This document shows positions 6,632 to 21,363 of a DNA stretch of 38,657 nucleotides, one piece after another (positions within the stretch are counted from its first letter, which is position 1; every line of letters starts with the position of its first letter). The notes beneath the pieces are model-generated. The model was given only the letters and a program-made list of their open reading frames with translations. It had not been told where the DNA came from and did not search any database. The DNA comes from Desulfobacteraceae bacterium (GTDB lineage: Bacteria; Desulfobacterota; Desulfobacteria; Desulfobacterales; Desulfosalsimonadaceae), in the NCBI GenBank assembly GCA_011390465.1, contig JAABSH010000036.1:1-38657 (forward strand), given 5' to 3'. The position numbers and the translations under genes were made by a program.

Positions 6632-7387
6632 TTAGAAACAGCGCCACCGGGTTTTGAGGCGCGTGATTTCTTTGCCGGTGTTTTCGCTGGTCATCCGGTG
6701 AATAAATGCCGGCGTATCCTCGGTTCCGGCATATTCAACCTCTGATTGTATCCGGTCCCCGTAAAGGGATTCCCCGATGTACTGAATCATCATTTCTTGC
6801 GGCCGCATTTCCGTGATGACCGCTTCCGGCACTGTTTCAAGGGCCCAGATGATATAGACGGCATTGTTGACATGGGTGTTGAAATCCAGATCATGCATCC
6901 GGATATTAAAATACCGCTGTTTGTCCGGCCGGGTGATTTCCGGCACGGATGCCGTATCCGCCGTATCAAGGACAACAGGATGAGAAAGGCCGTTTATCAT
7001 GGTTTCCGGCAGACTTCGGTTAAGCCGGGCCGGTTTTTTTGTGTTCAGGTTGATCACAATCCAGGTGCTTCTCGCGCTTATCAGGCAATTTCCGGTGTCA
7101 TCACAAATTTCAAATTGCCGCAGCTCATAAAGATTTTTGACCGGCTGCCGCCAGGTCCGGATGATGATTCGGTCGTTCCACCCGGGATAGTGCCGGATGT
7201 TGATGTGATATCTGATGACCACCCAGGCAAACCCGTTTTGGCGGAGATCATGGGCCGAAGCCTTCATCTGTCCGCAGTGGCGGCTCATGATGTCCTGAAA
7301 ATAGTTAAACGTGCTCACCGGTTTGATCAGGCCCCGGACCCCGGTTTCCGCATACCGCACCCGCAGGGTTTCTTCGTAAATGGTCAT
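6632..7387 (-). CDS. Acyl-ACP/acyl-CoA thioesterase (FatA-like double hot-dog)
   Basis: Hydrolyses an acyl thioester. The 251 residues fit a double hot-dog acyl-ACP thioesterase. The first half starts with the hot-dog pattern VRYAETGVRGLIKP. The second half has the catalytic loop DLDFNTHVNNAVYI (D168, N170, H172 region), followed by WALE. The start codon overlaps the stop of the aldehyde oxidoreductase gene (ATGA at 7384-7387), so the two are translationally coupled. In this setting it may release a free acid from an acyl-CoA that feeds, or comes from, the oxidoreductase reaction. Whether it prefers CoA or ACP substrates cannot be decided from sequence. Confidence 0.82.
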   Translation of the reverse strand: MTIYEETLRVRYAETGVRGLIKPVSTFNYFQDIMSRHCGQMKASAHDLRQNGFAWVVIRYHINIRHYPGWNDRIIIRTWRQPVKNLYELRQFEICDDTGNCLISARSTWIVINLNTKKPARLNRSLPETMINGLSHPVVLDTADTASVPEITRPDKQRYFNIRMHDLDFNTHVNNAVYIIWALETVPEAVITEMRPQEMMIQYIGESLYGDRIQSEVEYAGTEDTPAFIHRMTSENTGKEITRLKTRWRCF

Positions 7388-9339
7388 CCTGCAGATGAAT
7401 GCTCCCCCAGTTCTCTGGGGATTTCAGATGGCCGGCCGGTTTCAGTGTCCCAGTTGAACTGCTGCCAGTATTGGGTCATCATTTTGTCGATATTGACGGT
7501 GCGGTGTTTGTTGGCGCCTTCGGTCAGAGGCGGCTGGCCCACGGACCGGAGAGCGGGTTTTGCGGATTTGGGATCAATACCGTGTCTGAGGTTAAAGGCT
7601 TGTTTCAGGGCCTGGAGCCGCTTGCCGATGGCCATGTATTCTGCCGGGGTTTTGTTCCATCCGGTGGCCGCGTTAAGCCATTCAAACAGCGGGAACCGGT
7701 CCGCGCCGATCTGGGCGCCAAAGGCACAGCCGCCCGCGCCGTTTAAGACATTCATGAATTTGCTGCATGCTGCGGCTTCCATGGCTTTTTTGTCTGTTGT
7801 TTTGTATTTGGCGGATTTGCGGTAGATCAGCCAGGGCCGGGGCAGGGTTTTGTCCTTTTTCCAGAGCCGGAACATTTCATAGTACATCTGGGAGCCGATG
7901 GTGTGCCTTCCCGGAGTGGGTTCCACCGCGTAATGCATCGCAAACCCGGGATCAAACCGGCCGTCGTGCATGGGCAGCTCCTGCCCGCCGGCGTGGATGG
8001 CGTACTGAGCGGAATTTTTGCCGATTTTTTCAGCGGCTTTTTTAACGCCGTCCGCCAGAATGTCGCCAATGCCTTCCCGAATGATCATTTTTTCCATGAG
8101 CGCGATCATGGCACTGGTGTTGCCCCATCTCAGTTCCAGGCCGTCGGTGTCGGTTTTGGTCAGAATGCCCCGTTCATAGCATTCAATGGCAAACGCAATG
8201 GTGCCGCCGGCGGAAATCGTGTCCATGCCGGCCCGGTTCAGGCGGTCGTTCATGTGAAAAACGCTTTCCATGTCCGTGTTCAGGCACAATCCGCTCAGGG
8301 CAAGCATGGATTCATACTCGGGCTTGTGGGATTCGCCTCCGGGGAAATTGCCCCGGCTGATGCCGCCGCACCCCAGGGGGCATGAATAGCAGTGGTATTT
8401 GGATACTTCGTTTTTTGCGATAAGGTCCGGATTGATGGTGTCTGATTTAAAATCCAGGTTGGATCCGCTCCAGTTTTTAATGGGGGCATCGCCCAGTTCC
8501 ACGGAATACTGGTTCAGGGCAACGGTGCCCCATTTTCGGAGCATGATTTTCCACAGCATGCCGTCCATGGCGGTCTGGACTGGCAGCATCCGGAGGAGCG
8601 CCGCCAGAATGCGCAGGCCTTTTCCGGACAAAAACCAGGGCTGAAACTGCACCCATTTGTTGCATTTGCGGGAAAGGGTGCGGATTTCTTCCCGGTCAAA
8701 GGCCTCAATTTTTTTGGCACCGTCTAAGACCACGGCTTTTAATTTTTTGCTTCCCATCACCGCCCCGAGTCCGGATCGGGCCGCCATGCGGCCCAGGTCA
8801 TTGCTGATGCCGGAGATGCAGGAAAGGGTTTCGCCGGCCGGGCCGATACAGGCCACTTTAGGCTTGCGTTTGATCGTGAGATCCGCAATCAGGTTTTTTT
8901 CCGTTTCAATGGCATCCATGCCCCAGAGATGGGCCGCATCTTTTAATTCCGGTTTTCCGTTTTTGATGTACAAAAAGACGGGTTTTTCGCTGATGCCGTT
9001 AAAAAAAATGCCGTCATAACCTGAGCGCTTGATGGCCGGAGAGAAATTTCCCCCGCAGTTGGCATCCCCGTAGCCGCCGGTGAGCGGGGATTTGCCGCAA
9101 ACCATCCATCGTCCGGAAAACAGGCTGCCCGTGCCGGTGAGCAGTCCGGATACAAAACCCAGCATATTGTCCGGCCCCAGAGGATCCGCATCCTCCGGGA
9201 TGTTGTTGTATAAGATGAAGCCGCCCAGACCGGAGCCGGAGAGAAATTTTTCATACACGGCATCCGGAATTTCCTGTTCCTCAAAGGTTTGATCGGTGAG
9301 ATTGACCCGTAAAATTTTGCCCATGTAACCGTTCGGCAT
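7384..9339 (-). CDS. aor: Aldehyde:ferredoxin oxidoreductase family tungsten/molybdenum enzyme
   Basis: Tungsten-bispyranopterin enzyme family that interconverts aldehydes and acids with ferredoxin; the family also includes BamB of class II benzoyl-CoA reductase. The 651 residues begin with GYMGKILRVNLTDQ and GSGLGG, and continue with GKSPLTGGYGDANCGG (cofactor-binding region, about residues 82-97). The [4Fe-4S] ligands are CYSCPLGC (C317, C320, C324) and a late C538 in NGAGGCAFG. HAGGQELPMHDGR at about 449 is also typical. ATG at 9339 is chosen over the longer frame because AAGGAGG lies six bases upstream. A ferredoxin gene sits two genes downstream. No bamC-I partners are visible, so an ordinary AOR-type role is favoured over BamB. 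Confidence 0.88.
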   Translation of the reverse strand: MPNGYMGKILRVNLTDQTFEEQEIPDAVYEKFLSGSGLGGFILYNNIPEDADPLGPDNMLGFVSGLLTGTGSLFSGRWMVCGKSPLTGGYGDANCGGNFSPAIKRSGYDGIFFNGISEKPVFLYIKNGKPELKDAAHLWGMDAIETEKNLIADLTIKRKPKVACIGPAGETLSCISGISNDLGRMAARSGLGAVMGSKKLKAVVLDGAKKIEAFDREEIRTLSRKCNKWVQFQPWFLSGKGLRILAALLRMLPVQTAMDGMLWKIMLRKWGTVALNQYSVELGDAPIKNWSGSNLDFKSDTINPDLIAKNEVSKYHCYSCPLGCGGISRGNFPGGESHKPEYESMLALSGLCLNTDMESVFHMNDRLNRAGMDTISAGGTIAFAIECYERGILTKTDTDGLELRWGNTSAMIALMEKMIIREGIGDILADGVKKAAEKIGKNSAQYAIHAGGQELPMHDGRFDPGFAMHYAVEPTPGRHTIGSQMYYEMFRLWKKDKTLPRPWLIYRKSAKYKTTDKKAMEAAACSKFMNVLNGAGGCAFGAQIGADRFPLFEWLNAATGWNKTPAEYMAIGKRLQALKQAFNLRHGIDPKSAKPALRSVGQPPLTEGANKHRTVNIDKMMTQYWQQFNWDTETGRPSEIPRELGEHSSAG

Positions 9340-9395
9340 GGCATGCCTCCTTATATCATTTTTACCACAGCGTGCACGCGCGCAGAGTGAAAAAA

Positions 9396-10223
9396 TTAAA
9401 AACCCTGTGTTTTTTTTATTTGTGTGGTGCAATCGGGTTTTTCTGATGATACCAGTATTCCCATTTCAGACAAGCAGTTTTTTAAGCCTGCAAGGGCAGG
9501 GGATTCATTCATCAGCAGAATGCTTTTTCCTTCAATATCAAAGGCGCGCAGGGTGTCGTCTTCCGGAATCCAGCCGATAGTACCAATATCCGGCAGTATT
9601 TTCAAAGCGTTAAATTCGCCCCGGTCCCGGACCCGATTGACAATGAGGCCGGTTTTTTCATAATCAATGGCGGTTTGGGCCACCCGGCGGATGGTGGCGG
9701 CCACATTTAATCCTTTGGCAGACGCATCTGATACCAGCACCAGGTGGCTGACCTTTTTCATTACCCGCCGGTTGACCTGCTCGATGCCGGCTTCGCCGTC
9801 AATGACCACGTAATCAAAATTATTTGCCACGGAGGCAATAAGATCTTTCAGAATATGGTTGACCTGACAATAGCACCCGTCGGCTTCCGGCCGGCCAATG
9901 GCAATAAACGCCACGTTCCGGTGCTCTTCAAGGGCGGAAAACATTTCATATTCCAGCAGGGCAATCATCTGCTCCTTGTCCGATTCAAGGCCGGATTTAA
10001 CCCGTTTGATCAAATCATTGCGGACATCATCAACGGTTTTGTGCACGGTTATTCCCAGGGCCATGGAAAGGCCCACTGCCGGATCCGCGTCTATGGCCAG
10101 CACTTTGTTTTTCGGATCAGAAGACAGAATTTTCACAATCCCCGCGGACAGGGATGTTTTGCCAACGCCGCCTTTGCCGCACAGGGCAATGACCTTTGCT
10201 TTTTTAGCTGCTGTTTCAGACAT
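9396..10223 (-). CDS. cooC: CooC-like MinD-family ATPase (metallocentre maturation)
   Basis: CooC/AcsF-type P-loop ATPase, a family known for nickel insertion into CO dehydrogenase and acetyl-CoA synthase. The 275 residues from the start at 10223 hold the deviant Walker A CGKGGVGKTS (residues 15-24), DADPAVGL (about 46), the family's metal-binding CxC in GCYCQVNH (C117, C119) and DYVVIDGEAG (Walker B). The start lies inside the end of the preceding gene (eight-base overlap), which fits coupled translation. No CODH or ACS gene is present in the window, so its client may be another metalloenzyme of this cluster or a distant gene. The symbol reflects family, not proven role. Confidence 0.85.
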   Translation of the reverse strand: MSETAAKKAKVIALCGKGGVGKTSLSAGIVKILSSDPKNKVLAIDADPAVGLSMALGITVHKTVDDVRNDLIKRVKSGLESDKEQMIALLEYEMFSALEEHRNVAFIAIGRPEADGCYCQVNHILKDLIASVANNFDYVVIDGEAGIEQVNRRVMKKVSHLVLVSDASAKGLNVAATIRRVAQTAIDYEKTGLIVNRVRDRGEFNALKILPDIGTIGWIPEDDTLRAFDIEGKSILLMNESPALAGLKNCLSEMGILVSSEKPDCTTQIKKTQGF

Positions 10224-10959
10224 GAAGGGGGTTATCCTTTTTTTGCAACTTGCTTCGCATGGACCGGAGCTCCGCCACATCGCCGCACACTTCCCTGTAA
10301 TCACAGGTATTGCAGTTAAAGGAGAGCTCTTCGGCCATTTTGTTCATGGCGCTGATCAACGTGAAAACTTCATCCGCAATGGCTTTGGCTTCCAGAACAG
10401 TTGCCTGGTCTGCGGTGATAAAAATGATTTCCGCGGTTTTTACATATTCCACCGCCAGATACTGATCCAGCAGGGCACTTCCCAGATGGCGAAAGGAAAA
10501 TCCGTTGTTTAGTGCCTCATGGCTGACCCGGCTCCATTCCCGCTGGTACTGGGATACCCCGCGCATCATGTAGCCTTTTAAATGCACATCATAGCGCAGC
10601 AGTTCCATTTCCCGGTACCGGTCATAGCTGTTGTCCGCGTCAAAATCCCATCCTCCGGCAATGACGATTTTGCCGAAGGATACCGGTTTTCCGGAGAGCG
10701 CCGGCAGGTCCGGCCCCACCACGGAAATGCGGCCGTTTTTGAGCCATTCAGGATCGTTTACCCACAGCAGAAAGGCGGTGGACGCATCTCTGGGGCTGCC
10801 GAGCTCCACAGCCGTGTCCTGGCCCAGCACCAGGTTCCGGTTTTTTTCAGACGGCCACTGGGTGGGACCGGTGTGAAAATATTCGGTAACCTTTCCCTGG
10901 GCTCGCCGGAGGTCAAGATACTCTGAAACCAGTTTATATTGTTTGTCAAATAAGCCCAT
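10216..10959 (-). CDS. Unrecognised 247-residue protein with C-terminal cysteine cluster
   Basis: I do not recognise this protein with confidence. It has 247 residues and no signal peptide or membrane segment. Visible landmarks are GPTQWPSEKNRNLVLGQDTAVELG near residue 31 onward (split by no gap), VVGPDLPALS near 80 and a C-terminal cysteine motif CNTCDYREVC (C216, C219, C225) that could hold a metal or Fe-S cluster. It sits six bases after the Fe-S protein gene and overlaps the CooC-like gene by eight bases, so the three are almost certainly co-translated. A role with CooC in building or feeding a metallocentre is an inference from position. The cysteine spacing recalls proteins around CODH/ACS, but I cannot confirm that. 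Confidence 0.7.
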   Translation of the reverse strand: MGLFDKQYKLVSEYLDLRRAQGKVTEYFHTGPTQWPSEKNRNLVLGQDTAVELGSPRDASTAFLLWVNDPEWLKNGRISVVGPDLPALSGKPVSFGKIVIAGGWDFDADNSYDRYREMELLRYDVHLKGYMMRGVSQYQREWSRVSHEALNNGFSFRHLGSALLDQYLAVEYVKTAEIIFITADQATVLEAKAIADEVFTLISAMNKMAEELSFNCNTCDYREVCGDVAELRSMRSKLQKKDNPLHV

Positions 10960-12367: not shown

Positions 12368-13768
12368 CTACAACAATCCCCTCACATGAAAAAATTCATC
12401 CAGCCGTTCTTTTGTGGCATCCCAGGATTCCACCCGGTCATCAAATCCGTCGTCGTTCATGATGTGCACGGGAAATCCCTGTTTTTCCACATCCCGCGCA
12501 AAGGGTTTGAGCATGCCCCAGGTATTCCGGCATCCGGGGGTGCCGTTGTAGATCACGCAGTCCGCCTGATACATTCTGGCACAGGCAAGGGATTCCTCCA
12601 GCCACATGCCGTGCCGGTCATAGGGGCCCCGGATGGACCGGACCATGGGCATCCGGGCATTCATCTGGGCAAGGGTTTCAAACATGGCATCCGGAGAGGA
12701 CGTGTCCACATGGTAGGCGTTGTCCGGCAGATCCCGGACATATTTGTTTCCGTCCCGGAAGTTCCGGGTGAGGATGGAGCCGGTGTGGGCAATGCCCCGT
12801 TCTTCGAGATATTCATAAAAATTCATGTCCACGGTGTAATGATCAATATAACACATAAAGATGCGAAGTTTTTCTTCGCCGCATTTCAATCCCGGCACTC
12901 CGTTGTTCATCCGCCGGGTGACATCTTCGAGCATCACCTCCAGCAGTTCGGTATATTCCGGATGCCCGGCAAAACAGAAGCGACCTGCATAAATCATTAC
13001 ATTGAAAATGGGCGGGATCGGGGTGGGCACCATGAGCAGCATGTCTTCAATGTCTGCGGTAATGGCGTCCTGCCGGTTGATTTCTGCCAGGGCCTGTGCC
13101 AGCCGGTCATAATCCAGTTTTTTACCGCTGTGGGTTTCAATAAACCGGATCATTTCCCGGTAATCGTCAATATGGTATTTCTGGCTGCGGTCATCGCCGA
13201 TGGCGCTGGGATAATTCAGCTGGTAAAAAGGCTTGTCCAGATAGGCGGAAGAAAAGGCAAAGGCATTGGCATTGGTATCGCAGACCCCGGGAGTGTCGCA
13301 GACGAGAAAGTCGATATTTTCAAAAAGCCCGGCCAGAAAGGCGCCCAGAAATCCCCGCTGGGCCGAACACGCGGTTTCCGGCATGCCCGATTCCACGGCA
13401 TAATCCATATAATCGAACATGCCGCGCCGCCATACCATGCAGCCCAGGGCGGTGAGGATTTCAAAGGTGGCCGGTACGAGATCCATGGCATACAGGATGG
13501 CGGGGGTGTTGCAGAAGGTGGTGCCGACAATCATTTTCCCCTGGTCCCGGGCGGTCAGGATATTTTCATAATAACTGGCCAGCAGTTTGATAAACCGTTT
13601 GCCGGTGGGGCCCGCGTCGATCATGGTTTTCAGTGCCCCCCGGAAATAGGGGATATAATTGAACGCAAAATCGGTTTCCTTTTGAAACCCAACGGGAAAT
13701 TTTGCCGCGGCCGTCAGAGTGCCGCCCATGAGCCGGTCATAATTGTATTCAAGGATTTCGGGACGCAT
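12368..13768 (-). CDS. 2-hydroxyacyl-CoA dehydratase / benzoyl-CoA reductase family subunit (HgdA/BcrB-like, copy 2)
   Basis: Large-type subunit of the family whose Fe-S cluster, after ATP-driven one-electron activation, dehydrates 2-hydroxyacyl-CoAs or reduces aryl-CoAs. At 466 residues it is close to HgdA (about 477). Conserved cysteines are C86 (TTFCNTPA), C134 (ETACSAQRG), C157 and C163 (VCDTPGVCD) and C413 (NGTPGCRNTWG); C134, C157 and C413 fall where the family ligates its cluster. It is the same length as the copy at 15623-17023 and colinear with it, with clearly more than half of residues identical by eye, so it is a paralogue. Its gene is separated from the activase genes by repeats, and no second HgdB-like partner accompanies it. 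It may share the single HgdB, act as a homodimer, or replace copy 1 for another substrate. Confidence 0.88.
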   Translation of the reverse strand: MRPEILEYNYDRLMGGTLTAAAKFPVGFQKETDFAFNYIPYFRGALKTMIDAGPTGKRFIKLLASYYENILTARDQGKMIVGTTFCNTPAILYAMDLVPATFEILTALGCMVWRRGMFDYMDYAVESGMPETACSAQRGFLGAFLAGLFENIDFLVCDTPGVCDTNANAFAFSSAYLDKPFYQLNYPSAIGDDRSQKYHIDDYREMIRFIETHSGKKLDYDRLAQALAEINRQDAITADIEDMLLMVPTPIPPIFNVMIYAGRFCFAGHPEYTELLEVMLEDVTRRMNNGVPGLKCGEEKLRIFMCYIDHYTVDMNFYEYLEERGIAHTGSILTRNFRDGNKYVRDLPDNAYHVDTSSPDAMFETLAQMNARMPMVRSIRGPYDRHGMWLEESLACARMYQADCVIYNGTPGCRNTWGMLKPFARDVEKQGFPVHIMNDDGFDDRVESWDATKERLDEFFHVRGLL

Positions 13769-13800
13769 TTGTTTGCCTCCGAAGGATTATTTACTTGTTA

Positions 13801-13880
13801 ACCACAGAGCGCACAGAGGTCACAGAGAAAAACATGAAAATTTATTTTCTCCGTGTTCTCTGTGATCTCCGTAGTTGTAA
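13801..13880. repeat. CACAGAG-type inverted repeat
   Basis: The left arm (13801-13830) carries ACCACAGAG and CACAGAGAAAA. The right arm (13851-13880) carries their imperfect complement, TTCTCCGTGTTCTCTGTG then CCGTAG. The stem is long but interrupted. Such ACCACAGAG-type palindromes are a common class of intergenic repeat in proteobacterial genomes. No coding function is evident. Confidence 0.6.
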
Positions 13881-13895
13881 TATTGATTGGCCAGT

Positions 13896-13984
13896 TTGAA
13901 ATAAGTCGGTTTTTGCCTCGTTCCCACGGTCCTCCGTGGGAACGCATGCCTGGATTAAAAAAATAATTGAAATAAGTGGGTTTT
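13896..13984. repeat. Hairpin flanked by 18-base direct repeats
   Basis: A perfect ten-base-pair hairpin (GTTCCCACGG at 13920-13929, loop TCCT, CCGTGGGAAC at 13934-13943) lies between two 18-base direct repeats, TTGAAATAAGTCGGTTTT at 13896-13913 and the same with one change at 13967-13984. The second repeat ends one base before the activase stop codon. Flanking direct repeats suggest that a hairpin element was inserted here or that slippage duplicated the flank. The hairpin may also weaken read-through from the activase gene to HgdA copy 2. Confidence 0.7.
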
Positions 13985-13985
13985 A

Positions 13986-14795
13986 TTAACCTGTTTTTTT
14001 CAGTTCACCGTTGCTTTCAAGGGCTTCTTCCTGTGCGTACAGGGCCGCGCCCATGGCGCCCATGATCTGGGGGTCAATGCCCTTGATGGATTTTATTTCC
14101 ACATTCAGGGCCTCGGACAGGGCCTTGAACACACCGGAATTTTTTGCCACCCCGCCGGTCATGACCACGTCTTCTTTCACTTCAATGCTCTTTGCAAGAG
14201 ATGCCACCCGTTTTGCCATGGCCTTGTGAAGGGCGCTGACGATGTCCGCGGTTTCTTTGCCCTCATTGACCAGAGACACCACTTCGGTTTCCGCAAAAAT
14301 TACGCACTGGTTGGAGATCTGCAATTTTTCAGTGGACCGCTCGCCCATGGCCCCCATCTCCGGGAGCGGAACTTCCAGAGCGTCTGCCATGATTTCCAGA
14401 AACCGGCCCGTGCCGGAGGCGCATTTGTCGTTATAAATATAGCGGGCCACATTGCCGTTATCGTCCAATCGGGTGGCCTTGGCGTCCTGGCCCCCGATAT
14501 CAATGATCATTCGCACGGACGGCAGAACGTGCCAGGCCGCTTTGGCATGGCAGGAAATTTCAGATTTTACATGGTCAACAAAGGAAATCTGTTCCCGGCC
14601 GTAACCGGTGCCCATGACGCAGGCGATATCGTCCATGGTTAACCCTGCCGACGCCAAAACCATCTCCATGACCTCATCCGCTGATTCCGACGGCCGGGTT
14701 TTGGCCCGTATCACGGCGTGGGACAGGATTTTATCGTTTTCCATAATCACGGCTTTGGCCGTCAAAGAGCCGATGTCGCAACCTGCAACGATCAT
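13986..14795 (-). CDS. Acyl-CoA dehydratase/reductase activase (HgdC/BcrA type), copy 2
   Basis: ASKHA-fold ATPase that donates an energised electron from a [4Fe-4S] cluster to HgdAB/BcrBC enzymes. The 269 residues start with the phosphate-1 motif GCDIGSLTAKAVI, then GTGYGRE, the IDIGGQDAK signature and YNDKCASGTGRFLE. The cluster cysteines are C125 and C164 (SNQCVIFAETE), equivalent to the pair at 127 and 166 known in HgdC of Acidaminococcus. The late ATP motif MTGGVAKN is present. It is 30 bases after activase copy 1. Two different activases side by side recall the BcrA/BcrD heterodimer of class I benzoyl-CoA reductase, although both here are short, as in HgdC. Confidence 0.92.
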   Translation of the reverse strand: MIVAGCDIGSLTAKAVIMENDKILSHAVIRAKTRPSESADEVMEMVLASAGLTMDDIACVMGTGYGREQISFVDHVKSEISCHAKAAWHVLPSVRMIIDIGGQDAKATRLDDNGNVARYIYNDKCASGTGRFLEIMADALEVPLPEMGAMGERSTEKLQISNQCVIFAETEVVSLVNEGKETADIVSALHKAMAKRVASLAKSIEVKEDVVMTGGVAKNSGVFKALSEALNVEIKSIKGIDPQIMGAMGAALYAQEEALESNGELKKTG

Positions 14796-14825
14796 AATGA
14801 TATCTCCTTTTAGACTTGATATTGT

Positions 14826-15626
14826 TTAATTCCGGAGGCCGTTTCCATTTACCTTTTCCCATGAAAGGAGTGCCGCCCCGATGGCCCCGGCCATCTGGGG
14901 ATCGGCTTTTCTGGCTTTTTTGATCCGCTTGCCAATGAGTTTTTCAAGGGTAGACACCACCCCGATATTTTTGGCCACCCCGCCGGTCATGAAAATATCT
15001 TCTTCCGGCTTGACCGCATTCACCAGGATGGCCACCCGTCCGGCCATGGCCGTGTTGATGCCCGCGCCGATATCTTCCACCGGAATCCCGGAATTGATGA
15101 ATTTGATCACATCCGCCTGGGCCCAGACCGTGCAGGTGGAGGCCAGGGTCACCGGGGCCACGGACTGCTTTGACAATTTGCCCAGTTCATCTATGCTGAC
15201 CCCCAGGACTTTTGCCATCACTTCCAGAAACCGGCCCGTACCGGAAGCGCATTTGTCGTTGGTCATAAACCGGCTGATATTTCCGTCCCTGTCGATCCGC
15301 ATGGTTTTGCAATCCTGGCCCCCGATATCAATGACGGTCCGGGCCGTAGGCAGCAGCCATCGCGCCCCTTTGCCGTGGCAGGAAATTTCGGAAATTACTT
15401 CATCCACAAAATCAATCCGTTCCCGGCCGTATCCCGTGCCGGTGCAGTGGGCGATATCGCCTCTGGTCAGGCCGGCCTGGGCCAGCACGGCTTTCATGAC
15501 CGCGTCCGCTGAATCTTTTGGCCGGGGCTTTGACTTGATGAGATGGCTGGCAATGATTTTTTTGTTTTTCATGATAACGGCTTTTGAGGTGAGGGAGCCC
15601 ACATCACAGCCCGCGACAATACTCAT
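14826..15626 (-). CDS. Acyl-CoA dehydratase/reductase activase (HgdC/BcrD type), copy 1
   Basis: Second ASKHA-family activase, 266 residues. It has GCDVGSLTSKAVI, GTGYGRE, IDIGGQDCK, NDKCASGTGRFLE with C126, and C165 in LASTCTVWAQAD, plus MTGGVAKN. All residues expected for ATP and [4Fe-4S] binding are present. Its start overlaps the stop of HgdA copy 1 by four bases (ATGA at 15623-15626), so it is coupled to that gene. It differs clearly from copy 2 around the second cysteine (TCTVWAQ against QCVIFAE), which could reflect two partners or an AD-type heterodimer. Confidence 0.92.
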   Translation of the reverse strand: MSIVAGCDVGSLTSKAVIMKNKKIIASHLIKSKPRPKDSADAVMKAVLAQAGLTRGDIAHCTGTGYGRERIDFVDEVISEISCHGKGARWLLPTARTVIDIGGQDCKTMRIDRDGNISRFMTNDKCASGTGRFLEVMAKVLGVSIDELGKLSKQSVAPVTLASTCTVWAQADVIKFINSGIPVEDIGAGINTAMAGRVAILVNAVKPEEDIFMTGGVAKNIGVVSTLEKLIGKRIKKARKADPQMAGAIGAALLSWEKVNGNGLRN

Positions 15627-17023
15627 AACAACCCCCTTATGGTAAAAAATTCGTCCAGACGCTCCCGGCTGACTTCCCAGGATTCCACCCGGTCGTCAAA
15701 GGCATCATCATTCATGATATGGCAGGGAATGCCGTGTTTTTCGATATCTCTGGCAAAGGGTTTCAGCATGCCCCAGGTATTCCGGCACCCGGGGGTGCCG
15801 TTGTAAATCACGCAGTCCGCCTGATACATTTTTGCAAATGTCAGTGATTCTTCCAGCCACATGCCTTTCTGATCATAGGGCCCCCGGATGGACCGGACCA
15901 TGGGCAGCCGGGCGTTCATCTGGGCCACGGAGTCCAGCATGGCCTCCGGCGAAGAGGCGTCAATCCCGTAAGTGGAGCCGGCCAATGCATCCGCATAGGG
16001 GCTGTTGTCACGGAAATTGCGCGATAAAATAGACCCCACACTGGCAATGCCCCGCTCCTCCAGGTAATTGAAAAAATTGAGATCCACAGTATAATGATCA
16101 ATGTAACTCATAAAAACCCGCAGGTTTTCCTTTCCGTTTTTCAGCCCGGTTTCGCCGGAAAGCGCTTTTTCCCTGGCGGTTTTCACCATGGATTCCAAAA
16201 GTTTTGTGTACCGGGAATGCCCGGAAAAACAGAACCGGCCGCCATACAGCATCATATTGTAAATCGGGTTGATGGGCGTGGGTTTGAGCATGAGCATGTC
16301 TTCCAGGTCGGCAATCAATGCGTCCTGCTTATCCACTTCCGCCAGCACCTCGGCCAGGCGGTCGTAATCCAGGCGGTTTCCGGATTGGGCTTCCGCAAAC
16401 GCGATCATGCTTTTGTAATCGTCCACATGATATTTCTGGCTGCGGTCATCCCCGATGCTGGACGGATAATTGAGCTGAAAAAAGGGAAGGTTGAGGTATT
16501 CGCTTAGAAAGGCAAATGCATTGGCATTGGTATCACATACCCCGGGGGTGTCGCAGATGGCGAAATCGATTTTTTCGCACAGACCGCTTAAGAGCGCACC
16601 CTGGGAGCCCCGCTGAGAAGAACAGGACGTCTCCGGCATACCGGTTTCAACGCAATAGTCCATATAGTCAAACATGCCCCGCTTCCATACCAGGCTGCCG
16701 ATGGCGGTCAGCATTTCAAGGGTTACCGGCACAATGTCCATGGCATAGAGGATTACCGGTGAATTGCAGAACGTGGTGGCGCAGCATTTTTTTCCTTTGT
16801 CATGGGCAGTGAGGATGTTTTCATAATAGGCTGCCAGCAGTTGAAGGGTTTGCACCCCCGGATCCCCCGTGTCCACCAGGGTTTTAATGACATTCTTGAA
16901 ATACGGGATATAGGGATAGGTTTTTTCGGTTTCTTTTTTTGTGCCCCTTGGGAAATTGGCCGCTGTTTTAAGGGTCCCGCCCATGAGCCAGTCGTAATGA
17001 TATTCCCTGATTTCAGGTCTCAT
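15623..17023 (-). CDS. 2-hydroxyacyl-CoA dehydratase / benzoyl-CoA reductase family subunit (HgdA/BcrB-like, copy 1)
   Basis: 466-residue Fe-S enzyme subunit, a close paralogue of the 12368-13768 gene. Cysteines are conserved at the same sites: TTFCNSPV, ETSCSSQRG, ICDTPGVCD and NGTPGCRNTWG. The C-terminal block NDDAFDDRVESWEVSRERLD is almost the same as in copy 2. It overlaps the HgdB-like gene upstream and the activase downstream by four bases each. Together with them it makes a complete HgdB-HgdA-HgdC-like set whose sizes (379, 466, 266) are close to those of the 2-hydroxyglutaryl-CoA dehydratase components. The substrate is not determined; double-cubane-cluster proteins belong to the same superfamily and are an alternative. 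Confidence 0.9.
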   Translation of the reverse strand: MRPEIREYHYDWLMGGTLKTAANFPRGTKKETEKTYPYIPYFKNVIKTLVDTGDPGVQTLQLLAAYYENILTAHDKGKKCCATTFCNSPVILYAMDIVPVTLEMLTAIGSLVWKRGMFDYMDYCVETGMPETSCSSQRGSQGALLSGLCEKIDFAICDTPGVCDTNANAFAFLSEYLNLPFFQLNYPSSIGDDRSQKYHVDDYKSMIAFAEAQSGNRLDYDRLAEVLAEVDKQDALIADLEDMLMLKPTPINPIYNMMLYGGRFCFSGHSRYTKLLESMVKTAREKALSGETGLKNGKENLRVFMSYIDHYTVDLNFFNYLEERGIASVGSILSRNFRDNSPYADALAGSTYGIDASSPEAMLDSVAQMNARLPMVRSIRGPYDQKGMWLEESLTFAKMYQADCVIYNGTPGCRNTWGMLKPFARDIEKHGIPCHIMNDDAFDDRVESWEVSRERLDEFFTIRGLL

Positions 17024-18159
17024 ACCCTTAACCTCTCTAAGAACGCGTTGATGCGCAGTTTCATGCGGCCCACGTCAATCATGGGGCCGTATTCCCGCTC
17101 CAGTTTGAGACAGGGCATGCCCATGGCTTCGAGATCCCGTTCAAACAGGGAATTTTCCGCACCATGCAGGTCGCAGAAGCGGATGTTCTGCATCACCACC
17201 CCGTCCACCCGGGCCGCATCCAGTTTTTGTTTGAGCAGGGCCAGTCGCTCTTTGTATTTGCCGTACATTCTCGGACACACGGAAGACTGAAGATAATGAC
17301 GGCCAAGGGCTTCCACCGGATCACCGTGTTCGTCGATTTCATTGCCTTCATGCCGGATGCCGAAGCAGAGATTTTCCCCCACCACAATGGCGTCATTGTT
17401 TTCTTCCAGCATTCGGAACAACTCAATTTCATCACTGATGCTGCCAATGAGCATGAGCCGTTTTTTGCCGGCGCTCAGGGATGTTGTCCGGTTTTTCAGT
17501 TCCTCCAGCCACCGGCGGAGGGCCTGGTTGTAAGCTTCCCGCTGCATGACCGTACCGGCCACGGTGGCGGCAAATATATCCGTGCCGGAAACCACCACAT
17601 CGTCCCTGTACCGCAGGGATTCAATTTCCTGAAGCATCCGGCGGCCCTGGTTGTATACCTTGATGGCGTCGGCCAGGTTGTCGTCGGTGACCTTTACATT
17701 GAAATGATTTTCAATTTTTTTGATCAAGATCCGGAGTTCTTCGATATACCAGGCCATGCCATGATTCTCAGACTTGTGCGGCACATCAAAATAATAGAAA
17801 AAATCCGGCAAAATACCTTTGTAATCCTCCGCGGCTTTTCGCCAGCATTCATCCAGGCGCCGCATGCCGTCGCATCCCGGGGTAATAATGGCGCCGTCCA
17901 GAAACATGAATTTTTCTTTGCCTGCCAGCTGAAGCAGGCATTTGGGAAAACTGCAGATAAACGGGCCGTAATAGGTGTCTCCGATTTCCATGCCTTCGGT
18001 TTCAATGCCTTTGAGCCGGACCGGCAGGATATCCACGCTGTGGAAAATTTCACCCGGGGTATAAGAGCAGGTATAGCCGACAATGGGTCTTTCGGTTGCC
18101 TGCCAGTCGCGGATGGCCTGGCAGTTTAGTCTGGTTGCGGCATCATAAAATTCATCCAT
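17020..18159 (-). CDS. 2-hydroxyacyl-CoA dehydratase / benzoyl-CoA reductase family subunit (HgdB/BcrC-like)
   Basis: 379-residue subunit, the length known for HgdB. Visible family features are VGYTCSYTPGEIFHS near residue 27 (substrate-side P-x-E motif), C69 and C74 in FICSFPKC, C96 in ITPGCDGMRR, and a late cysteine in NIRFCDLHG followed by KLEREYG. C69, C96 and the late cysteine match the positions that hold the Fe-S cluster. It is the only HgdB-like gene here against two HgdA-like ones. The start lies three bases after the stop of the unrecognised 497-residue protein gene, and the end overlaps HgdA copy 1 by four bases, so all are in one operon. Confidence 0.88.
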   Translation of the reverse strand: MDEFYDAATRLNCQAIRDWQATERPIVGYTCSYTPGEIFHSVDILPVRLKGIETEGMEIGDTYYGPFICSFPKCLLQLAGKEKFMFLDGAIITPGCDGMRRLDECWRKAAEDYKGILPDFFYYFDVPHKSENHGMAWYIEELRILIKKIENHFNVKVTDDNLADAIKVYNQGRRMLQEIESLRYRDDVVVSGTDIFAATVAGTVMQREAYNQALRRWLEELKNRTTSLSAGKKRLMLIGSISDEIELFRMLEENNDAIVVGENLCFGIRHEGNEIDEHGDPVEALGRHYLQSSVCPRMYGKYKERLALLKQKLDAARVDGVVMQNIRFCDLHGAENSLFERDLEAMGMPCLKLEREYGPMIDVGRMKLRINAFLERLRV

Positions 18160-19843: not shown

Positions 19844-21241
19844 CTAATGCAGCATCTCTGTCCGGGGGGCCGGTGCTTCCGCTGTTTCCGCTGCCGGCAT
19901 CAGGGCCGGAGCGGGGTCTGTCTTTTCCGAGGAGCCTTTTTTTGCTGCCTCCTCAGCGGCCAGAAGATGTTTGACCAGCCTTTTCCCCAGAGCAATGAGG
20001 GTTCTTGTGGGCGGAAGTCCCCATTCCTGGGGCATGACCGAGCAGTCGCACACATAGAGGTTGTCAAATTTTGTTTTCAGGTTGCTGTCCACCTGTTCGC
20101 CGATTTTTACGGTGCCGCCCGGATGGGCCGCCACCCGCCAGCTTCGGTAGATGTCTGTTGCGCCGGCGTTTTTAAGAATGCGTTTGGCGTGCTCCGTGCC
20201 TTTGTCCAGCTTTTTGACGTCTTCTTTGGTAAGGGATTTTTTGACCCACCCGTTATTGGCCACTTCACCGCCGAGCTCATCTCTGATTTTGATCATAATG
20301 GGCAGGGTGTCGCTGTAAGAAAAGGCCTGTTTGACTTTTAAAATTTCCAGATCCAGCCCAAGCTTCAGCATCCGGGGCATATTAAAATCCGTCATCATAA
20401 TCCCGTCTTCTTCAAAATGAATGCCCGTGCTCATGGGAATGGATTTGCCGCTGCCCAGGCCTTTTATTTTGCCGTAAACAAAAACCAGGGGGTCAAAAAA
20501 GAAGTCGAACCCGGCGCTTCGCATGCCGCTTTTGCGGAGAATCAAAGGAGATCCGATGCCGCCGGCGGCAATGATGATTTTCGGAGCATAGGCGTGAAAG
20601 GTTTCCTTGTCGTGGCGATACTGCACGCCCACGGCTTTTTTGTTTTCAACCAGCACTTTTTCCACGTTGGCAAAATTGATCATAAGGGCGCCGTTAACCA
20701 TGGCTTCGGCAACAAACCGGCGGGCGTCCCATTTGGCCCCATAGGGGCAGCCGTACATGCAGAGCTGGCAGTCGGCTTTGCACCGCGACGGATAGATGAA
20801 TTTATTCTGTTTGCGGGCGTCATACCCGAGATCCATCGCGCTTTCTAAAAACGCCCGCGGCCCCGGCCCCAGGAGTTCGTCCGGCAGTTTTGTCACCGGC
20901 ACATCGCTGGTCAATTCCTCGGATTCCCGGGAAATATCCACGCCATAGCTTTTCAGAATATCCAGGGGCGGATCAAATGCCGTGCCGCAATAGATCATGG
21001 AGCTGCCGCCCGTGGTAATGGCCCGGACCACCGGCAGGGCCTGACGGGTCAGCACCACATTTTTCCCGGGTACAAAGGCCCGGGGCAGGGTCTTTAAAAA
21101 CGTGCCTTTTTCCGGGTCATTGTCTCCCCTTTCAAGAATCAGAACCTTTTTGCCGTTTCTGGACAGTTCCCGGGCCACTGTGGCGCCCCCCGGACCGGTG
21201 CCCACCACAATGGCGTCAAAATCAGATGTGGGTGTTTGCAT
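19844..21241 (-). CDS. GMC-family FAD-dependent oxidoreductase
   Basis: Flavoprotein that oxidises an alcohol or reduces the matching carbonyl, 465 residues from the chosen start. The N-terminal ADP-binding motif is VVGTGPGGATVARELS (G14-G19), followed by LILERGD. A cysteine-containing segment CQLCMYGCPYGAK resembles that of anaerobic GMC members and could bind a metal or Fe-S cluster. The C-terminal GMC block is HPGGTVKIGEQVDSN, then YVCDCSVMP and PPTRTLIALGKR. ATG at 21241 is preferred to a longer frame because AGGAGA precedes it. It is the first gene of the long minus-strand cluster and is followed by the mobile repeat. The substrate is unknown; a hydroxyacid or cyclic alcohol would suit the cluster. 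Confidence 0.86.
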   Translation of the reverse strand: MQTPTSDFDAIVVGTGPGGATVARELSRNGKKVLILERGDNDPEKGTFLKTLPRAFVPGKNVVLTRQALPVVRAITTGGSSMIYCGTAFDPPLDILKSYGVDISRESEELTSDVPVTKLPDELLGPGPRAFLESAMDLGYDARKQNKFIYPSRCKADCQLCMYGCPYGAKWDARRFVAEAMVNGALMINFANVEKVLVENKKAVGVQYRHDKETFHAYAPKIIIAAGGIGSPLILRKSGMRSAGFDFFFDPLVFVYGKIKGLGSGKSIPMSTGIHFEEDGIMMTDFNMPRMLKLGLDLEILKVKQAFSYSDTLPIMIKIRDELGGEVANNGWVKKSLTKEDVKKLDKGTEHAKRILKNAGATDIYRSWRVAAHPGGTVKIGEQVDSNLKTKFDNLYVCDCSVMPQEWGLPPTRTLIALGKRLVKHLLAAEEAAKKGSSEKTDPAPALMPAAETAEAPAPRTEMLH

Positions 21242-21363
21242 GATTTTTCTCCTGTGATTATTTCTGTTTGTTGTGGCAAGTAAGAGAAACTGCCGGCCGG
21301 TGGTGCGGGTCAGAGGAGCGGTGGTAAATAAAAACAGATGAAGTTTCAATAAACAATGTTTTA

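Follow-up and report, generated by a model that had tools for sequence, protein, structure and literature searches.

Reductases of the benzoyl-CoA reductase (BCR)/2-hydroxyacyl-CoA dehydratase (HAD) superfamily spend ATP to drive electrons below the potentials of most biological carriers, and few branches of the group have been characterised. In the accessible part of PMC11971306, Cys36, Cys73, Cys100, Cys263, Cys293 and Cys327 of BzdN are described as the ligands of an [8Fe-9S] double-cubane cluster, the beta subunit of the 2-hydroxyacyl-CoA dehydratases as the holder of a [4Fe-5S] cluster, and the BCR and MBR types as permanent heterotetramers. Going by their description in the accessible parts of PMC12016498 and PMC13365417, rather than by comparison of sequences, tetrahydronaphthoyl-CoA reductases are class I enzymes of Azoarcus type or Thauera type. 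Here we consider a set of five genes in a 38,657-nucleotide stretch of a Desulfobacteraceae genome (contig JAABSH010000036.1; the whole stretch is called the window), encoding one B subunit, two A subunits (A1 and A2) and two activases (act1 and act2). On balance, sequence comparisons argue that the set probably specifies an ATP-dependent reductase of this superfamily, representing a third double-cubane lineage beside the BzdN type and the double-cubane cluster protein (DCCP), in which A1 and A2 are exchangeable and share B and the activases. The branch is apparently undescribed: no paper was recognised as describing the cluster in a literature search that missed most subscription papers and preprints, and the accessible part of PMC10936416 shows no link to it. 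The benzene-activation 'Magic' cluster (PMC13101534) was taken to be different, the terms CooC, GMC and BzdN being absent from its accessible part.

Gene set, predicted relay subunit and activases

The five open reading frames (ORFs) of the initial annotation were confirmed at their coordinates (Table 1), all on the minus strand and in the order B-A1-act1-act2-A2. B overlaps A1, and A1 overlaps act1, by 4 bases; 30 bases separate act1 from act2 and 217 bases separate act2 from A2, whose start is preceded by GGAGG. An ORF on the plus strand opposite A2 (12386-13801, 471 amino acids) was taken as its mirror frame, and an assembly artefact was ruled out as the origin of the two A genes because the same gene order recurs in other assemblies. 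The annotation had presented the set as neither a plain HgdABC dehydratase nor a standard BcrABCD reductase. Two activases with one B and one A are, however, the make-up of class I benzoyl-CoA reductase, so that only the extra A is unusual; the statement stands at the level of families, where curated NCBIfam cut-offs are missed and B forms a separate clade, but not for the BCR-like subunit make-up. The window is contig C49 of a 3.93-Mb genome with seven HGD-D matches, namely the window trio and one pair each on C70 and C33. The C70 pair (locus L001) has an adjoining activase match and an A-like member that matches HadB best. Another A/B-like pair, with two annotated activases and a B-like protein lacking three of the six double-cubane cysteines, was seen on a Rhizobium leguminosarum plasmid (L138, 10637-16065).

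Relatives were collected by running a profile of A against genome contigs, and the best 80 of 84 were kept, representing 78 distinct loci, or 79 with the window. Gene presence at these loci was counted with a six-frame profile scan and, since many contigs are cut, the counts are lower bounds. Residue conservation, the activase tree and one neighbouring-gene count given below (aldehyde:ferredoxin oxidoreductase) come from called ORFs, among which the caller kept antisense frames that masked real genes, window A2 included; one ORF sequence cluster (c9) appears to be made of antisense frames. Rows for residue conservation were chosen by length: 76 of 85 for A (without window A2), 80 of 84 for B and B' together, 107 of 121 for the activases, 49 of 50 for the CooC-like ATPase and 38 of 41 for the GMC protein, where B' belongs to a B'-A'-act' set that follows the CooC-like gene in some loci. 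The A trees used rows of at least 430 amino acids, the position-group tree 110 of 121 activases and 81 of 84 B rows, and the B clade tree and the residue comparison with BzdO were based on subsets (19 B, 10 B', 18 A and 10 A' rows).

Cysteines C31, C69, C96, C265, C295 and C329 of B align, in that order, with the six BzdN ligands (8s02_B), and they are kept in 79-80 of the 80 B and B' rows. B and B', joined by a single L111 protein without C265, make up one clade of the tree (support 98), next to the BzdN-type (99) and DCCP (100) clades. We predict from these residues that B is a double-cubane subunit. Because B has the full set of six cysteines, a plain dehydratase, whose beta subunit would be expected to fall short of that set, is disfavoured, though the set alone is insufficient to decide the matter. 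An ordinary 2-hydroxyacyl-CoA dehydratase of the HgdABC/HadIBC type with redundant copies is very unlikely: two of the six cysteines are absent from HadC (3o3m), there are two conserved activase groups, a tyrosine pair shared by BzdO and HadB-like proteins is absent from A, and the NCBIfam cut-offs for HadB (40.5 of 750 bits, for A2) and HadC (139.6 of 700, for B) are missed by far.

Both A copies are 466 amino acids long and keep C86, E103, C134, C163 and C413, as had been noted, and A retains the BzdO cluster cysteines 95, 128 and 380 and Glu65. Two of the six double-cubane positions lack a conserved cysteine in A, and the earlier suggestion of a double-cubane-type reductase is thus borne out for B but not for A. 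In an alignment of about 18% identity, BzdO Trp46, His131, Tyr97, Gln274 and Tyr298 correspond to C86, N166, S/A136, I308 and L333 of A. The Tyr298 column is Leu or Met in A, BzdO Leu302 is likewise replaced, and A lacks two tyrosines that five BzdO rows share with the two HadB-like proteins of this genome. Because A has other residues at most of the BzdO positions that surround the benzoyl thioester, benzoyl-CoA is probably not the substrate. A class I reductase acting on benzoyl-CoA or another aryl-CoA (of the Bzd, Bcr, Mbd or tetrahydronaphthoyl-CoA type) would have an identical subunit make-up and identical cluster ligands, and aldehyde:ferredoxin oxidoreductase, 2-oxoacid oxidoreductase or ferredoxin-like proteins lie near the cluster in various loci. 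Such an identity is nonetheless improbable in view of the six replaced BzdO residues, the position of B outside the BzdN clade and the missed NCBIfam cut-offs (bzdO 30.9 of 448.6, bzdN 125 of 453.8 and bzdQ 184.3 of 380.2, with bcrA-D also missed); moreover, no aryl-CoA pathway was evident in a sample of neighbouring proteins scanned with Pfam, which included a single member of the enoyl-CoA hydratase family (near L094).

The two activases are 51% identical and, as the initial annotation held, both retain the two cluster cysteines but diverge around the second. When rows were grouped by gene position (50 act1, 40 act2), the motif there was of the TCTVWAQAD type in act1 (W and Q each in 47 of 50) and of the QCVIFAETE type in act2 (F in 39 of 40, E in all 40), the act1 W and Q standing where five solved activases have F and E. 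On the tree act1 and act2 are two old groups, not perfectly clean by position. This conserved asymmetry fits an act1-act2 heterodimer. Two activase-domain matches also occur within one 1475-aa open frame at G000:C22:17217-18608, which is reminiscent of the multidomain PlsA-type ether-lipid enzymes.

Duplication of A and the probable sharing of B

A1 and A2 are 68% identical over 466 gap-free columns, and their divergence is highest in blocks 31-60, 271-300, 331-360 and 451-466, away from the cluster ligands. The ratio of nonsynonymous to synonymous divergence (dN/dS) is 0.07-0.10 to orthologues and 0.17 between A1 and A2, with dS near saturation. In the A tree, A1 groups with A genes lying directly after B (8 rows, 98) and A2 falls within a 16-row clade (99); a second tree gave groups of 7 and 16 rows, both with support of 98. 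The annotation's opposing case was that both copies fall in a characterised clade of like gene order; the order is indeed conserved, but no characterised member of the clade was found. In four genomes (L067, L077, L079 and L097) a protein of the A2 clade is the only A found, with a single B in the cluster; the order is B-act-act-A in L067, while A directly follows B in the other three. The earlier statement that the second HgdA has no HgdB partner is misleading: with A2-clade proteins as the sole A found beside one B elsewhere, A2 very likely shares B and the activases with A1. Of the three options then raised, that of two enzymes with one subunit in common has the best support, from these four genomes and from the constraint on both window copies.

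Duplication has happened more than once. The Smithella-type loci L122, L126 and L127 carry an independently duplicated A pair (99, and 96 in the second tree), and L169 and L170 may hold further independent duplications; two A genes were seen in 9 of the 79 loci. In L061, proteins of the A2 clade occupy both A slots. From this pattern, together with those of the single-A loci and of L070 (below), it follows that, in the course of time, A copies were lost or replaced. The strong hairpins in the spacer ahead of A2 and the single A of many relatives would suit a non-functional or non-expressed leftover copy, but we regard this as extremely unlikely for a full-length frame with its own ribosome-binding-like site, with the checked catalytic residues kept and with dN/dS of 0.07-0.08 to three orthologues, from a clade that provides the sole A found in other genomes.

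The simplest account is that A1 and A2 are exchangeable catalytic subunits that share B and the activases. Reduced ferredoxin would load an act1-act2 heterodimer holding one [4Fe-4S] cluster, ATP hydrolysis would push electrons one at a time into the [8Fe-9S] cluster of B, and B would pass them on to the [4Fe-4S] active site of A1 or A2. The two isoforms would then make two enzymes that differ in specificity or expression and draw on one electron supply. The sequences themselves show the gene set, the residues of the cluster ligands, the orthology, the duplication and the constraint; the cluster types, the heterodimer, the sharing and the direction of electron flow we infer.

Several observations weigh against this account. 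A2 is not directly coupled to B, and the 217-base spacer with its strong hairpins lies ahead of it. The first-slot A of L070 belongs to the A2 clade and its second-slot A lies outside both clades, so that slots do not map cleanly onto clades, and the four single-A genomes are 91-94% complete, such that a second A could be missed. The position-based act1 and act2 labels need 4 and 6 changes on the tree. At about 18% identity between A and BzdO, statements about single columns could be one off, and a profile-profile alignment pairs F85 of A, rather than C86, with C31 of B. The B-like protein on C70 has all six cysteines, yet its best model is HadC (219.6 bits, cut-off 700). With the thioester tyrosines lost, the substrate could be something other than a CoA thioester. 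Finally, A1 and A2 may act within one complex, as an A1-A2 hetero-oligomer or a B-A1/B-A2 double dimer, carrying out two consecutive reductions in one pathway. Both copies do stand in one cluster in six Desulfococcaceae-type loci (the window, L060, L061, L063, L068 and L070), two A genes lie side by side in the Smithella-type loci, and A was duplicated at least twice while the B beside it stayed single. We consider the single complex unlikely, however: many relatives manage with one A and, because A lacks two of the double-cubane cysteines, two A proteins paired without B would be devoid of an electron store of this kind.

Conserved neighbourhood and occurrence

A is present at all 79 loci by construction, activases at 71, B or B' at 69, the stand-alone acetyl-CoA synthase (ACS) domain protein at 57, the CooC-like ATPase at 54, a 490-aa protein, represented in the window by the 497-aa helical protein, at 49, the GMC protein at 44, A' at 21 and the 4Fe-4S protein at 20. 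The genes are usually arranged as GMC, 490-aa protein, B, A, act1, act2, (A2), (4Fe-4S protein), ACS-domain protein and CooC-like, the parentheses marking genes that may be missing; exceptions include L072, with A alone, and L087, with the ACS-domain and CooC-like genes inverted.

Table 1. Positions and sequence characteristics of the gene set and its neighbours in the window
Feature	Position	Strand	Characteristics
Aldehyde:ferredoxin oxidoreductase (AFOR)	7384-9432	-	Pfam AFOR_C E 7.1e-94
CooC-like P-loop ATPase with CxC	9396-10304	-	Best PDB match CooC 3kje, E 2.7e-19; start may be downstream of 10304
Stand-alone ACS domain-2-like protein, 247 aa	10216-10959	-	Pfam CdhC E 3.2e-10; CxxCx5C near end
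4Fe-4S protein, 395 aa	10966-12153	-	Two 4Fe-4S motifs and more conserved cysteines
A2, second putative catalytic subunit, 466 aa	12368-13768	-	Pfam HGD-D E 1.5e-53; checked catalytic residues retained
act2-A2 spacer	13769-13985	-	Two strong predicted hairpins and GGAGG ahead of A2
act2, putative ATP-dependent activase, 269 aa	13986-14795	-	BcrAD_BadFG E 4.6e-55; QCVIFAETE at second cluster cysteine
act1, putative ATP-dependent activase, 266 aa	14826-15626	-	BcrAD_BadFG E 1.1e-59; TCTVWAQAD at second cluster cysteine
A1, putative catalytic subunit, 466 aa	15623-17023	-	Pfam HGD-D E 1e-48; cluster C134/C163/C413, E103, C86, N166
B, 379 aa	17020-18159	-	BzdN-like predicted [8Fe-9S] electron-relay subunit; Pfam HGD-D E 4.5e-83
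All-helical protein, 497 aa	18163-19656	-	3 bases before B; model pLDDT (predicted local distance difference test) 81.7
GMC-family FAD oxidoreductase	19844-21349	-	Pfam GMC_oxred_N E 1.1e-18

The act2-A2 spacer (206 bases folded, 13780-13985) gave a fold z of -6.4 and is a possible regulatory or processing point. It also contains a long palindrome, whose 16-base core CACAGAGAACACRGAG occurs seven times in the genome (reversed control, none) and may be a dispersed repeat.

The stand-alone ACS-domain protein, whose likeness is to what we take to be domain 2 of ACS, has C216, C219 and C225 in 48 of 48 rows. It falls short of a full-length A-cluster protein, at 247 amino acids against frames of 416-870 for most weaker ACS-like matches. 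With a cut-off of E <= 1e-25, picked after a gap in the match list, and at most nine candidates scored per genome, it was found in 25 of 297 genomes and in 19 of the 20 that have A (Fisher p ~8e-24), the exception being G264; six genomes carry it without A. We examined 16 of the 17 copies outside A clusters (L171-L186, leaving out G192:C233), and 11 are near B-, A'- or activase-like genes, with GMC also nearby in L171 and L172. The other five (L174, L175, L177, L178 and L179) have no such neighbours, and three of these are whole contigs of 3.7-8.3 kb. Given the 11 copies near reductase-like genes, the protein goes with a wider reductase group, and it is possibly a general accessory of these reductases. 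The window also holds methylenetetrahydrofolate reductase and a second, related protein (738-2421), and a 746-aa ACS-like frame lies on G000:C97. The CooC-like ATPase resembles CooC in its P-loop and CxC, and all 49 rows have C144 and C146.

A structure search with the predicted model of the 497-aa helical protein found no PDB fold match at E <= 0.001. Small ORFs ahead of the 490-aa protein in L168 (6617-7303) and L169 (4450-5157) match its profile weakly (53 and 37 bits) and are possibly relatives of it; their position resembles that of the second small protein of L122 (c16). The GMC family has the cysteines of a Cx3Cx2Cx3C motif in 29-31 of 38 rows. In the Smithella locus L122 a TetR regulator and two acyl-CoA dehydrogenases take GMC's usual place, as members of the same sequence clusters do in several other loci. 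The combination of GntR or TetR regulators with GMC or acyl-CoA dehydrogenases suggests, with low confidence, a lipid-like or CoA-linked substrate. We tentatively propose that it could be a hydrophobic compound, linked to CoA or to a carrier, that is processed with GMC or, in the Smithella type, with the two acyl-CoA dehydrogenases.

AFOR, found as a sequence cluster in 7 of the 79 loci including the window, is no constant part of the gene cluster, and is a possible source of low-potential electrons. Other candidate donors are an EFR1-type ferredoxin (L122) and a 2-oxoacid:ferredoxin oxidoreductase (L167), and the 395-aa 4Fe-4S protein is a possible electron carrier. The presence of AFOR, ferredoxin and 2-oxoacid oxidoreductase near the cluster fits a ferredoxin- and ATP-dependent reductase.

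At E <= 1e-40, A occurs in 20 of 297 sampled genomes of the phylum. Four of the 20 are distant (200-257 bits): L164, L165 and L167 have B-A-act-act, L166 has A-act-act close to the end of its contig, and in L165 and L167 the set is adjoined by the ACS-domain and CooC-like genes. None of the 20 is among the 11 genomes with BzdO-like proteins, about 0.7 being expected by chance. Clusters were assigned to Smithella and other Syntrophaceae, sulfate-reducer groups, spirochaetes and SAR324, one of them (L110) to the strain Desulfoluna limicola ASN36, and this occurrence may mark an unrecognised step of anaerobic carbon turnover.

Comparison with described enzyme systems

If the reading of a third double-cubane branch is true, its own accessory genes and shared relay would widen known biological Birch-type chemistry. 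A bolder proposal is a new class of ATP-driven low-potential reductase of anaerobes, with a double-cubane relay, exchangeable A subunits whose [4Fe-4S] site has an extra cysteine and no thioester tyrosines, a substrate that is neither an aryl-CoA nor a 2-hydroxyacyl-CoA, and dependence on a dedicated metal-handling pair (the CooC-like ATPase and the stand-alone ACS domain) that would possibly place nickel or a different metal in or close to the active site; we hold this to be unlikely as a whole.

The nearest described systems are the class I benzoyl-CoA reductase BzdNOPQ of Aromatoleum and the 3-methylbenzoyl-CoA reductase MbdONPQ of Thauera chlorobenzoica, which have the same make-up of two HGD-D proteins and two activases, and the six [8Fe-9S] cysteines of whose N-type subunit appear to be matched by B. 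The window family differs from these in the changed wall of A (Trp46 to Cys, His131 to Asn, Tyr97 to Ser/Ala and Tyr298 to Leu/Met), in its own B clade, in its linkage to GMC, ACS-domain and CooC-like genes and in the duplicated A. From HadBC/HadI and HgdAB/HgdC it is set apart by the double-cubane set of B, of which HadC (3o3m) is two short, by its two activase groups and by an A without the thioester tyrosines. DCCP and DCCP-R (6eno, 7yyl; NF040772) share the six cysteines with B; however, B scores 174 bits against the NF040772 cut-off of 350, the window set has two unlike subunits, and A is, by its sequence, not a double-cubane protein. Lastly, the CooC-like protein matches CooC (3kje), an accessory ATPase of carbon monoxide dehydrogenase (CODH)/ACS, in its P-loop and CxC, and the ACS-like protein resembles the region around domain 2 and the first cluster cysteines of ACS. 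In contrast to CooC and ACS of CODH/ACS, however, these genes lie beside a putative reductase rather than CODH/ACS, and the ACS-like protein ends soon after the cysteine motif.

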